Origin: Spirochaetales bacterium
Lineage (GTDB): Bacteria > Spirochaetota > Spirochaetia > JABMQR01
Length of the DNA: 64,000 nt
Assembly: GCA_018399255.1 (NCBI GenBank)
Contig: JAGYPA010000014.1
Span: 1 to 64,000 of the forward strand
Direction: 5' to 3'
Positions 2,082-5,632 of the stretch are shown one piece after another. Made by a program: the position numbers and the translations under genes. Position 1 is the first letter of the stretch. Every line of letters begins with the position of its first letter. The notes under the pieces were generated by a model. The model saw only the letters and a program-made list of their open reading frames with translations, searched no databases and was not told where the DNA came from.

Positions 2082-2242
2082 CTATGACAATCAGGTCAAT
2101 ATTTAGATGCTTATATACTCATTAATATTGTATTAGTAATTTTTTTTAATTGTCTATTACTCTAGCACACTACATCTTACATGGAGGCTAACATACCGTT
2201 TGAATGTTCTAAGCAGTCACCGACACCCCCCTATGAAAAAAA

Positions 2243-2273
2243 GCCGCCTACCCGTAAGTTCCGGATAGGCGGC
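2243..2273 (-). terminator. Rho-independent terminator of the fasciclin gene
   Basis: GCCGCCTA (2243-2250) pairs perfectly with TAGGCGGC (2266-2273) around a 15-base loop. On the minus strand the stem is followed by a run of seven T residues (the A run at 2236-2242). It lies 40 bases past the fasciclin stop codon. Confidence 0.85.
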
Positions 2274-2312
2274 TCGGCAGATTTCAGAATCTGTCTCTGC
2301 TTATTACAGTCT

Positions 2313-2816
2313 CTACTGCGGCGGCAGAAGCACGGAATCGATAACATGTATAACACCATTTTCAGCTTCAATGTCAGTTATGATCACATTGGAGTCGTTC
2401 AGTTTAACTCCGCCTCCAGCCAGGGAGATGCTGATAGAATCACCGTTTACTGCGTTGGCACTTGATAATCCAACAACATCAGCTGCCATTACCTTGCCGG
2501 AAACTACATGATACAGGAGAATATCGGTCAGGGTCGGGATATCGTTGAGAAGTGCCTCTACAGTTCCTGCCGGAAGTTTGGCAAATGCATCGTCAGTGGG
2601 AGCAAATACGGTAAAGGGTCCTTCTCCCTGGAGCGTTTCGACCAGCCCTGCAGCTCCTAAGGCCGCGGCAAGGGTGGTAAAACGGCCGTCACTTACGGCA
2701 ACTTCAATAATGTCAGGCTGTGGTTCTGGCATCGGCGCATATTCTTCCAGACCTGCTGCAAATGTAAATGCACCTGCAAAAACAACTAACAATAGTGAAA
2801 CTAATAACTTTTTCAT
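2313..2816 (-). CDS. Exported FAS1 (fasciclin/beta-Ig-H3) domain protein
   Basis: ATG at 2816 is chosen because AAAGGAGAGA lies just upstream and the protein then begins with a clean signal peptide ([20 protein letters not shown], cleavage likely after AFTFAA). The mature part is a single FAS1 domain: H1-like segment [15 protein letters not shown], then [10 protein letters not shown], and the C-terminal motif [16 protein letters not shown]1 domains act in adhesion and matrix contacts, and secreted single-domain forms are common in bacteria. Length (167 residues) is normal for the family. It is transcribed divergently from the CarH-like regulator and its promoter contains a perfect palindrome, so light- or B12-dependent control of this gene is plausible. 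That control is inference. Confidence 0.92.
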
Positions 2817-2872: not shown

Positions 2873-2901
2873 AATTTAATCTCTTGTCCAAGACAAGTCA
2901 A
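2873..2901 (-). promoter_or_regulatory. Fasciclin promoter with palindrome in the -35/-10 spacer
   Basis: On the minus strand TTGACT (2901-2896) and TAAATT (2878-2873) are separated by exactly 17 bases. The spacer is almost filled by the perfect palindrome CTTGTCCAAGACAAG (2883-2897). MerR-family proteins typically bind in or over the promoter spacer, so this is the best candidate operator for the divergent regulator. Confidence 0.6.
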
Positions 2902-2942
2902 GATTAAATTGTAATATTTTACAATTTTTTTTAGACATCTAT

Positions 2943-2979
2943 TTGACTTGTAATTGACATACCTTGACAAAGGTTGTCA
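2943..2979 (+). promoter_or_regulatory. Phased TTGAC/TTGTC repeats upstream of the CarH-like gene
   Basis: TTGAC occurs at 2943, 2954 and 2964, and TTGTC at 2974, giving a spacing of 11, 10 and 10 bases (one helical turn). The last two form the inverted repeat TGACAAAGGTTGTCA (2965-2979). The same TTGTC/GACAA half-site makes the palindrome in the fasciclin promoter. Known CarH tetramers bind tandem 11-bp repeats, so this layout suits autoregulation by the adjacent gene. Confidence 0.5.
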
Positions 2980-2998
2980 GATTATGTGACATTGACTT

Positions 2999-4033
2999 AT
3001 GAAAAATGAGAAAGTGCATCCAATCGGGGTTGCTGAGCGACTGACCGGTCTCTCGGCCCATGTCATCAGAAAATGGGAAGAGCGCTACGGTGTTGTCGAA
3101 CCGGCCAGAAATGCCAATGGAAGGAGGCTTTATTCTGATGCTGATATCAAGCGAATCGATTTACTGCACCGAGCTGCCGGAACCGGTCGCTCTATTGGAC
3201 AATTGATAGACTTGACGAATGAAACGCTTGAAACATACATAGCTGCAGATTCAGCGATATCTGCTGCTTCCCGATCCAATACAGAATCAAATCCGACACA
3301 GGCTCAGGCTCTATCTCAGGCCCAGGCCTCACCTGCAGCTTCATCATCTGCCGCTTCATCATCTGCCGCTTCATCATCAACCCGGAACCCGGATCTGCCG
3401 TTCATGATGCAGACAGCGGAACAGTTTATTCAGGCAGCTCAAGAATACAGCGATACCAGGTTGGAACGGCTGCTTGACAGGGCCTACAGCAAACTTGGTC
3501 AGCATTCTATGATAGATAACCTGATCCCGCTCATCATGCATAAGCTTGGTGATGCCTGGGAGCATGGTCTGCTGCGTATCGGGCAGGAACATCTGGCCAC
3601 CTTCCGGGTAGAGGCTTTCCTCATCAAAGTGCTGAATTCGCTCGGACTGCCGGAATCAGCTCCGTATGCGGTTGCCGCATCGTTTAAAGATCAGCAGCAT
3701 ACCATCGGAGTCCTTTCAATATCCATTATCAGCAGATCAGCAGGCTGGCAGACTGTCTATATGGGGGGCAATGCCCCGGTTGAGGAAATTTCAGGCGCTG
3801 TAGAGGCTTTGAAAGCCAAGGTCCTCCTGCTGAGTTTTAACTATCCCTATTCGGAACATACCCTGCAGGCAGAGCTGGCCGAGCTGAAACGAACCATCTC
3901 TCCCGATGTCACTATTATTGCGGGTGGGCGGCCGGCCGTCGAATACCAAAAAAAACACCCCTCCTCAGGGCTTGTTGTGCTCAATTCCTTCAGCGAGCTG
4001 CGGCAGAGACTTCGTGTAAAAAAAGGTGTCTGA
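2999..4033 (+). CDS. MerR-type regulator with B12-binding domain, CarH/LitR-like photoreceptor
   Basis: Residues 1-75 form a MerR winged helix (HVIRKWEERYG, then GRRLYSDADI). A Ser/Ala/Gln-rich linker (95-130) contains three 15-bp repeats. Residues about 135-215 form the helical cap and 220-340 the Rossmann-like cobalamin domain. The cap carries W187 followed by nine residues and E197-H198, the Wx9EH signature of adenosylcobalamin photoreceptors. H234 in DQQHTIG is the expected lower-face cobalt ligand; the acidic residue of ExHxxG is Gln here. Known relatives bind DNA as dark tetramers and release it when light breaks the Co-C bond. No strong ribosome-binding site precedes ATG 2999. The stop codon lies inside the REP element that follows, so the last residues (KKGV) are repeat-derived. 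Family assignment is firm; light sensing is inferred. Confidence 0.9.
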   Translation: MKNEKVHPIGVAERLTGLSAHVIRKWEERYGVVEPARNANGRRLYSDADIKRIDLLHRAAGTGRSIGQLIDLTNETLETYIAADSAISAASRSNTESNPTQAQALSQAQASPAASSSAASSSAASSSTRNPDLPFMMQTAEQFIQAAQEYSDTRLERLLDRAYSKLGQHSMIDNLIPLIMHKLGDAWEHGLLRIGQEHLATFRVEAFLIKVLNSLGLPESAPYAVAASFKDQQHTIGVLSISIISRSAGWQTVYMGGNAPVEEISGAVEALKAKVLLLSFNYPYSEHTLQAELAELKRTISPDVTIIAGGRPAVEYQKKHPSSGLVVLNSFSELRQRLRVKKGV

Positions 4034-4119
4034 CACCGTTTTACGCAATCAGGCAAGGGTTTTATACCGTTTTACGCAATTTCCACCTGTTTTTTTGAGG
4101 TAAACGGTGTCAGACACCC
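4025..4119. repeat. REP/BIME-like element, copy 1
   Basis: GGTGTCTGACACCGTTTT at the left and AAACGGTGTCAGACACC at the right are inverted arms. An extra ACCGTTTTACGCAAT copy and a TTTTTTTGAGG tract lie between them. The left arm overlaps the stop codon of the CarH-like gene. Sister copies are at 28838, 30296, 41805, 44779 and 50231. Confidence 0.85.
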
Positions 4120-4126
4120 ATATCGG

Positions 4127-5632
4127 TCAGGCACCCTCGTCGGCGGCCGCCCATGAGGGGGGCCAGGGCCAGCTTTCGAACCCGAACGGCGAGCAGCTTG
4201 CCATGGAGTTCCATTCCTGTTCTGCTTCTTCGCTCTCACGCACCGAAACGAGGACTCCTCCGGGACCCATGGTTTTATCTATGATAATATCGATGATAAA
4301 TACAGGGGGCAGGTTCGGACCGGTGAAGGTTACAGGATACGCAATGGCATTTCGTTTGCCCTGATTGATGCCGCTGCCCTGATTGATGCCGCTGCCCTGA
4401 CTGATGCCGCTGCCCTGACTGATGCCGCTGCTCCGATTGGTGACTCGCTGATTTGCTTGTTCTCCCTCTGCTTCCTGCTCCGGACTAGGAAAGAGCACAG
4501 CCTTCAGTATCAGCCTGGCAGACCCGGCCGGGATGCCGATCCAGAGAAGGGGGGGACCGATTTCGTTATCCCAACCGCAGAGGAACTCCCGATCTCCATT
4601 GCCAGATTCCGAAGATGCTGAAGAAATTGACCCGGTAAAACGGAACCGGAGCGCTTTTGCCCGCTGCCACAATTTCCCTATCTCTGCTGCCTTTCCAGGA
4701 TCATTCAAGGAAGCAGGTACTACCTGGAGGCCGCCGACCGGCCACTCGCATGCTTCGAGGACTTTCCCGTCCAGCCCGATCGCCTCAGCCGTGACATGCT
4801 TCCCATCAATGCTGATGCGGGCAACATGATGATACTCAGCATAGGGGGGATACAAAACCGGGTGCCCGCCGCCGGCCGAGCATATTTGGGGTATATTGCG
4901 ATGGATCTGAAAATCGAACGCACATACATGGGCACAGAGATAGGCTGATACCTTGCAGCTGACTAACAGGTCCAGGATACGCTCAGTCTGTTGTGGATCG
5001 ATGATCCAGGATGCGTGGGGATAGGGGGAGTGGCGGGCATATCCGTTAACAGGAAATAAGGGGAAATGGGAAGCGACAAGCTTTACCGGTTTGTCACTGA
5101 ACTGTTCAAGCACCTCTCTGAGCCAGTCAAGGTCGTCGAAACCGGTAGAGCTGCGGCCGGAGAATATCGGGTGGAGCGCGATCAGCACATAATCGCTGCC
5201 GGCAGCATACCAGGAGAGTCCCCGCTGACCGGGAGGACCGTTATCGGGCAAATCTGGAAAGGCTGCGCGAAAAAGATCCTCGGCTTCGCTATTAGGGAAA
5301 GCACGGCCATAGGGATTTGGCAGATTTTCCGTAAAAGAGACCGTGTCATGATTTCCCGGCAGATGATATACGGGAAACGGCGGGTCAATTGCTTCCTTCT
5401 GCAAGAAATAGCTCCACTGCTCTTTGAGTTCTGCTATAGAGCAGTAACCTGCCACATGGTCCCCGTTGAATATGAGAAAATCGGGGGCGGGAGAGAGTTT
5501 CTGGATTACCTCATTGGCCTTTCGGAAGAGTTCCTCACCCTCACCCTCACCCCCACCCTTCCTGCCGGGGATTCCGCCCAGTACATCGGCATACTGAACA
5601 AACTGGACCCGGCCTCTCTCAGGTTCCGCCAT
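4127..5632 (-). CDS. Calcineurin-like metallophosphoesterase with altered metal ligands
   Basis: Phosphoesterase motifs are in order: NGDH (56-59), PGNHD (92-96), ASHFPLF (187-193) and CAHVC (233-237). The first motif DxH reads D16-V-L, and the final GHxH reads AHVC, so two usual metal-binding histidines are missing. Activity is therefore uncertain. Residues after about 300 have no recognised domain and include four GSGISQ/GSGINQ repeats encoded by an 18-bp array (4361-4432). A second low-complexity stretch (GGEGEGEE, about 27-34) lies close to the damaged first motif. The start is four bases from the upstream permease stop, so it is the last gene of a sugar ABC operon. Hydrolysis of a sugar phosphate or phosphodiester taken up by that transporter is a reasonable guess. 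Confidence 0.8.
   Translation of the reverse strand: MAEPERGRVQFVQYADVLGGIPGRKGGGEGEGEELFRKANEVIQKLSPAPDFLIFNGDHVAGYCSIAELKEQWSYFLQKEAIDPPFPVYHLPGNHDTVSFTENLPNPYGRAFPNSEAEDLFRAAFPDLPDNGPPGQRGLSWYAAGSDYVLIALHPIFSGRSSTGFDDLDWLREVLEQFSDKPVKLVASHFPLFPVNGYARHSPYPHASWIIDPQQTERILDLLVSCKVSAYLCAHVCAFDFQIHRNIPQICSAGGGHPVLYPPYAEYHHVARISIDGKHVTAEAIGLDGKVLEACEWPVGGLQVVPASLNDPGKAAEIGKLWQRAKALRFRFTGSISSASSESGNGDREFLCGWDNEIGPPLLWIGIPAGSARLILKAVLFPSPEQEAEGEQANQRVTNRSSGISQGSGISQGSGINQGSGINQGKRNAIAYPVTFTGPNLPPVFIIDIIIDKTMGPGGVLVSVRESEEAEQEWNSMASCSPFGFESWPWPPSWAAADEGA
4361..4432. repeat. Four 18-bp tandem repeats inside the phosphoesterase gene
   Basis: The unit CTGATTGATGCCGCTGCC is repeated four times with few changes (4361, 4379, 4397, 4415) and keeps the reading frame, encoding repeated six-residue Gly/Ser/Gln units. 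Confidence 0.9.

Follow-up and report, generated by a model that had tools for sequence, protein, structure and literature searches.

A CarH-type regulator gene and a divergent gene for a single-domain fasciclin (FAS1) protein likely form an autoregulated switch, in which the regulator loaded with adenosylcobalamin (AdoCbl) would repress both genes in the dark and light would release both. The gene pair is located in a stretch of 64,000 nucleotides from a Spirochaetales bacterium (assembly GCA_018399255.1, contig JAGYPA010000014.1), hereafter called the window, and its features are listed in Table 1. Dark repression and light release of carH and fas1 are predicted from the arrangement of these features. 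In the dark, the AdoCbl-loaded protein would bind tandem 11-bp TnnACA repeats at the carH and fas1 promoters and, by covering the -35 element and spacer of both, would occlude RNA polymerase. Light would split the Co-C bond, the CarH oligomer would fall apart, and both genes would be transcribed. The exported FAS1 protein would then be made in the light and would most likely act at the cell surface during photo-oxidative stress, shading the cells through aggregation or adhesion.

With somewhat less confidence, we lean towards a wider reading, namely a module, widespread among bacteria, that places cell-surface fasciclins under B12-dependent control by light. It would span at least seven phyla (the six named below and that of the window's class), would in some genomes serve FAS1 alone, with no coupling to carotenoid synthesis, and would involve a leaderless carH mRNA arising from the fusion of operator and promoter. 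No other B12 photoreceptor has been studied as well as CarH, whose known role is mainly the repression of carotenoid genes. If true, a recurrent fasciclin target with operators conserved across phyla would widen the role of CarH to light-controlled surface behaviour, would hint at the purpose of many bacterial FAS1 proteins, and would make light-triggered aggregation or surface remodelling a general photoprotective behaviour. The circuit is also simple and testable, with one regulator, two promoters and one output, in lineages for which hardly any genetics exists.

Table 1. Features of the carH-fas1 locus in window coordinates, and FAS1 promoters of three co-directional loci
Feature	Position	Strand	Length	Description and basis
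fas1, single-domain FAS1 (fasciclin) protein	2313-2816	-	167 aa	Divergent from carH; Pfam
Proposed fas1 -10 TAAATT	2873-2878	-		17-bp spacer from TTGACT -35; inferred from consensus
Palindrome CTTGTC-CAA-GACAAG	2883-2897	strand-neutral		Outer 2 bases overlap fas1 -35
Putative fas1 operator	2885-2901	-		TTGACT 2901-2896 (also -35), N5, TGGACA 2890-2885; 11-bp phase, within promoter core
Putative carH operator	2932-2979	+		TAGACA 2932, TTGACT 2943, TTGACA 2954, TTGACA 2964, degenerate TTGTCA 2974; spacings 11, 11, 10, 10
Proposed carH promoter	2964-2992	+		-35 TTGACA 2964-2969, 17 bp, weak -10 TGACAT 2987-2992, 6 nt, ATG 2999
CarH-type regulator gene	2999-4033	+	344 aa	ORF, Pfam, alignment, AlphaFold model
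CarH-type protein domains				MerR DNA-binding ~6-76; Ser/Ala-rich linker ~84-132; four-helix bundle with W187-x9-E197-H198; cobalamin Rossmann domain with H234
FAS1 promoter, L088				TTGACA-N5-TATACA
FAS1 promoter, L132				TTGACA-N5-TGTACG-N6-TATCAT
FAS1 promoter, L133				TTGACG-N5-TATACG-N6-TACATT

The CarH-type regulator

The regulator matches the Pfam families MerR_1 (47.5 bits) and B12-binding (44.8 bits), and B12-binding_2 with 22.8 bits falls just below the cut-off of 23. Its recognition helix, of the RxWERRY type, reads RKWEERY, and R24, W26, E27, R29 and Y30 do not vary across 41 aligned sequences. A first-pass annotation made from the window alone had reported a Wx9EH motif (W187, E197, H198) and a cobalamin-binding histidine (H234). 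All four residues are found exactly where they were claimed, and they are invariant across the 41 aligned relatives, as are G237, S279 and G309-G310. In CarH proteins, the Wx9EH motif touches the adenosyl group. Compared with the D/ExHxxG, SxT/V and GG pattern around the lower axial histidine, the D/E position is occupied by Q232 and the T/V position by N281, while H234 and the remainder are present.

The top solved-structure matches of the regulator in a sequence search were Thermus CarH/LitR. An AlphaFold model, built on the alignment of relatives, reached a pLDDT of 89.5, and a Foldseek search with it returned CarH first (3.5e-16). The B12 domain of the model matches that of Thermus CarH with a Z score of 21.5 over 198 residues at 2.3 Å. 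The NCBIfam equivalog NF052513 (TransRegCarH) gave 108.8 bits against a curated cut-off of 400, which places the regulator outside this narrow equivalog. The source genome encodes a cobalamin adenosyltransferase, and the regulator is predicted to bind AdoCbl.

The FAS1 protein

The FAS1 protein, the only one in the source genome, matches PF02469 (Fasciclin) with 133.1 bits at a cut-off of 22, and its N-terminus carries a hydrophobic stretch that, judged by eye, resembles a signal peptide. A surface or adhesion role is suggested by analogy. Alternatively, the circuit could operate as proposed with FAS1 as a photoprotective carotenoid or lipid carrier like AstaP of green algae rather than as an adhesin, which would alter the last step only and is otherwise compatible. 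AstaP-type proteins are stress-inducible carotenoid binders (PMC10147662) that share the FAS1 domain, secretion and stress induction, the source genome holds carotenoid synthesis (crt) genes (crtI-crtB-cyclase-like), and AstaP is a weak sequence match (8c18, 1.3e-13). However, the sequence similarity is low, and the closest solved relatives of the FAS1 protein are adhesion-type FAS1 domains and the bacterial 1w7d. Furthermore, PMC10147662 gives no carotenoid-binding bacterial FAS1 and reports that a cyanobacterial homologue did not bind carotenoids, and the crt genes of the source genome lack CarH repeats. A carrier role is less well supported, and we regard it as doubtful.

Operators and promoters of the gene pair

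In published CarH operators, direct repeats of 11 bp with the core TnnACA stand in tandem and overlap the -35 element (PMC9304148; PMC8156234). Repeat arrays of this type lie on both strands of the shared intergenic region, each overlapping a promoter. On the carH side, the TTGAC/TTGTC units that had been described with spacings of 11, 10 and 10 are present (starts 2943, 2954, 2964 and 2974), but the in-phase TAGACA at 2932 had been missed, and the array comprises five units. Pairs of TNNAC[A/T] at exactly 11 bp occur three times in the intergenic region, a number reached in 0 of 20,000 dinucleotide shuffles.

Across the genome, the strict pair pattern has 21 matches, of which four lie within 330 bp at this locus (three in the carH-fas1 gap and one just inside carH). 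The strict repeat shows no genome-wide enrichment, with 21 matches against 60 for a backwards control pattern. The inspected matches at other sites resemble background; for the most part they sit within coding sequence or lack a neighbour with an apparent link to light. Since no CarH-type repeats were found near the crt and photolyase-type loci of the source genome, its CarH may serve only FAS1 and itself; the genome is about 90% complete, and other CarH targets may be missing from it.

The palindrome that had been placed in the 17-base spacer of the fas1 promoter exists and lies mostly, though not entirely, within this spacer. It was rejected as an operator, because it did not appear between the two genes in the closest relative and is explained by the direct repeat TTGACT-N5-TGGACA. 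It forms where TTGGACAAG joins ACTTGTC and is probably an incidental by-product of this repeat. The search pattern derived from it, TTGTC-N5-GACAA, has the wrong spacer, since the actual one is N3; no exact match occurs in the window, and one-mismatch matches are at chance level. The closest relative, L004, belongs to another family of the window's class, and its regulator is 47% identical in the search. Here, the direct repeat is kept on both strands, as TTGACTATAGTTAGACA and TTGACAAGTCTTAGACA. A loss of Wx9EH or of the operators in close relatives had been named as a possible refutation; the motif is invariant in the 41 relatives, and the direct repeats persist in L004.

As the proposed -10 element of carH ends just 6 nt before the ATG, the carH mRNA is probably leaderless. 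MerR-style activation acts on promoters with longer spacers. The spacing of the carH promoter and the fusion of the operator to the core promoter point to repression by occlusion rather than to such activation. Several points weigh against the proposed switch: an identity of only 20-25% to characterised CarHs, the glutamate following Trp187, the QxH variant, the weak carH -10 element, and two of four spacings being 10 bp.

Recurrence of the gene pair

The first-pass annotation had considered a fasciclin target unusual and had recommended comparing the gene pair in related spirochaetes. A comparison across bacteria shows that the pairing recurs, and the idea of a one-off is not supported, with thirty further CarH-type loci adjoining FAS1 in several phyla. 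Within the window's class, FAS1 is the divergent neighbour of seven carH-type genes, including the window's own. A scan of named genomes yielded 80 CarH-type loci, 24 of which have FAS1 beside carH; since these loci were the top-scoring matches of a single query family and are biased towards the relatives of one subfamily, this is no rate for all CarHs. The 24 loci belong to Gemmatimonadota, Thermodesulfobacteriota and other 'Deltaproteobacteria', Acidobacteriota, Bacteroidota, Armatimonadota and Krumholzibacteriota. Of the resulting 31 FAS1-linked loci, 28 are divergent, and in 30 the W, E and H of Wx9EH and the axial histidine are kept.

On the CarH tree, the FAS1-linkage label changes 13 times, with at least eight changes forced by well-supported branches; the tree was built with a quick method and has long branches, which makes exact placements unsure. 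The link is thus either ancient with losses or recurrent. Nothing relevant joining CarH or LitR with fasciclin was found in the open-licence literature. Control of fasciclin expression by light appears to be a widespread and so far unreported circuit rather than a single-genome oddity.

Repeats across the loci

When 27 intergenic regions were autocorrelated without any assumed motif, a lag of 11 stood far above all other lags (178 versus 30, z 17.6). Pairs of TN[GT]AC[AT] at 11 bp are found in 19 of 26 divergent intergenic regions, with a shuffle mean of 0.25 and a maximum of 3, and at any other spacing in no more than four of the 26. It could be argued that these repeats are ordinary sigma-70 -35 boxes or the sites of another factor, and that the protein is a B12-independent, CarA-like relative of MerR. 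TTGACA is indeed the -35 consensus itself, and one FAS1-linked regulator (L022) has lost both Wx9EH and the axial histidine. This explanation is very improbable given an exact 11-bp periodicity that emerges without any motif assumption, the occurrence of the unit as TATACA or TGTACA as well, and the intact key B12 residues of the window protein.

Another possibility is that the repeats serve only the autoregulation and the promoter of carH, and that FAS1 lies beside it by chance or through old synteny, outside CarH control. In divergent loci, the operators could indeed serve autoregulation only, and repeat pairs occur on both strands in only six of the 26 divergent regions. Upstream 11-bp repeats are also present in 36 of 59 carH genes without FAS1, as expected for autoregulation, which explains part of the pattern. 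Nevertheless, we judge this explanation to be quite unlikely, as a second, oppositely oriented array lies at the fas1 promoter in the window and in L004, and the pairing recurs over the 13 label changes on the tree. In addition, the co-directional loci L088, L132 and L133 have a separate CarH-type promoter directly before FAS1 (Table 1), which is the main argument for FAS1 being a target.

The control of fas1 by the CarH-type regulator through phased repeats, as originally put forward, is strongly supported by this comparative evidence, because the pairing occurs in many phyla, exact 11-bp repeats lie on both promoters, FAS1 has separate CarH-type promoters, and Wx9EH and the histidine are retained almost throughout; a role of the palindrome as operator is not supported. 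The pattern TTGAC-N16..18-TANNNT ending 5-8 bases before the carH start was found in 12 of 26 regions, compared to 0.017 expected, and the carH promoter of the window matches this conserved spacing despite its weak -10 element. The conserved promoter signature TTGACA-N5-TNNACA-N6-(-10) is usable to find CarH regulons in genomes.

Several loci deviate from this arrangement. The CarH-like regulator of L022 (868-1836, minus strand), which is divergent from a two-domain FAS1 and possibly CarA-like, still has a promoter with TTGACA, a TTCTACA unit 11 bp further on and a near-consensus -10 element. In four genomes of the window's class (L012, L014, L015 and L030; for example L015:1855-2757, plus strand), a CarH-like MerR gene has a bacteriorhodopsin-like gene as its divergent neighbour. 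Wx9EH is lost in all four of these regulators and the axial histidine in three, and this rhodopsin-paired relative is probably B12-independent; the locus in L012 still holds 11-bp TGTACA repeats. In L013, the end of a CarH-like gene is overlapped by the gene directly after it, which encodes a lipocalin-like lipoprotein (identified by eye; 2090-2662, plus strand). In L139 (1253-1310), 11-bp TnnACA pairs lie just upstream of a FAS1 gene with no carH in the stretch covered, which suggests that this gene may be controlled by a CarH encoded elsewhere.

Light as the signal

AdoCbl-dependent repression, with or without light, fits all the sequence evidence, from which the signal itself cannot be read. 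The circuit could therefore be real and respond to the level of coenzyme B12, or to redox state or oxygen acting on the cofactor, instead of light; apo-CarH would then be unbound and FAS1 would be made when AdoCbl is short. The residue after Trp187, which differs from that of the light-studied CarHs, is in line with this explanation. On the other hand, Wx9EH is required for photoreceptor activity in the studied CarHs (PMC9304148) and is intact in all but one of the FAS1-linked proteins, and genes for photolyase (L054, L055 and L068) and RudS (L088 and L091) are found near several FAS1-linked carH genes. RudS has been described in light-responsive operons (PMC11417400). A B12-level signal is thus regarded as unlikely, and light is preferred. 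Some FAS1-linked loci also contain a sigma-70 factor and NAD(P)-binding proteins.

Comparison with known systems

The proposed circuit resembles CarH/class I LitR of Thermus thermophilus, Bacillus megaterium and Myxococcus xanthus in domain order, Wx9EH, axial histidine, predicted fold, the tandem 11-bp TnnACA operator overlapping the -35 element, and a layout suggesting autoregulation. It differs in its apparent target, a FAS1 gene instead of carotenoid genes, and in its long Ser/Ala-rich linker, QxH instead of D/ExH, and a five-unit array with unequal spacing. Furthermore, Trp187 is followed by glutamate, whereas Thermus CarH has a histidine that becomes the upper ligand upon exposure to light.

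Fasciclins belong to proteobacterial singlet-oxygen regulons. In R. sphaeroides, photo-oxidative stress induces the fasciclin RSP_1409 (PMC7074977), and PMC10949492 cites a fasciclin of A. brasilense that acts in flocculation and is under the control of RpoE-ChrR. These systems share the tie between a fasciclin and photo-oxidative stress, but are controlled by an ECF sigma factor and not by an adjacent repressor of the B12 photoreceptor type. The class II LitR regulons of Pseudomonas (PhrB, RudS, CryB and FolE) likewise represent a light response run by LitR/CarH relatives, and photolyase and RudS also neighbour several FAS1-linked carH genes. However, class II LitR does not have a full B12 domain, and no fasciclin appears in the published gene lists consulted.

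Further observations in the source genome

Besides its crt genes, the source genome encodes a photolyase-related protein (DPRP), whose gene on contig C10 is intact. A photolyase-like gene on contig C201 (L170:3122-4000) is seemingly split into several frames. Just 3' of carH, at 4025-4120 of the window, the blocks GGTGTCTGACACC and GTTTTACGCAAT (with GGTAAACGGTGTCAGACACC) occur in repeated and inverted form and resemble one end of a small repeat of mobile or intergenic type. The following metallophosphoesterase-like gene (4127-5632) contains an in-frame tandem repeat of GISQGS/GINQGS units at 4370-4445.
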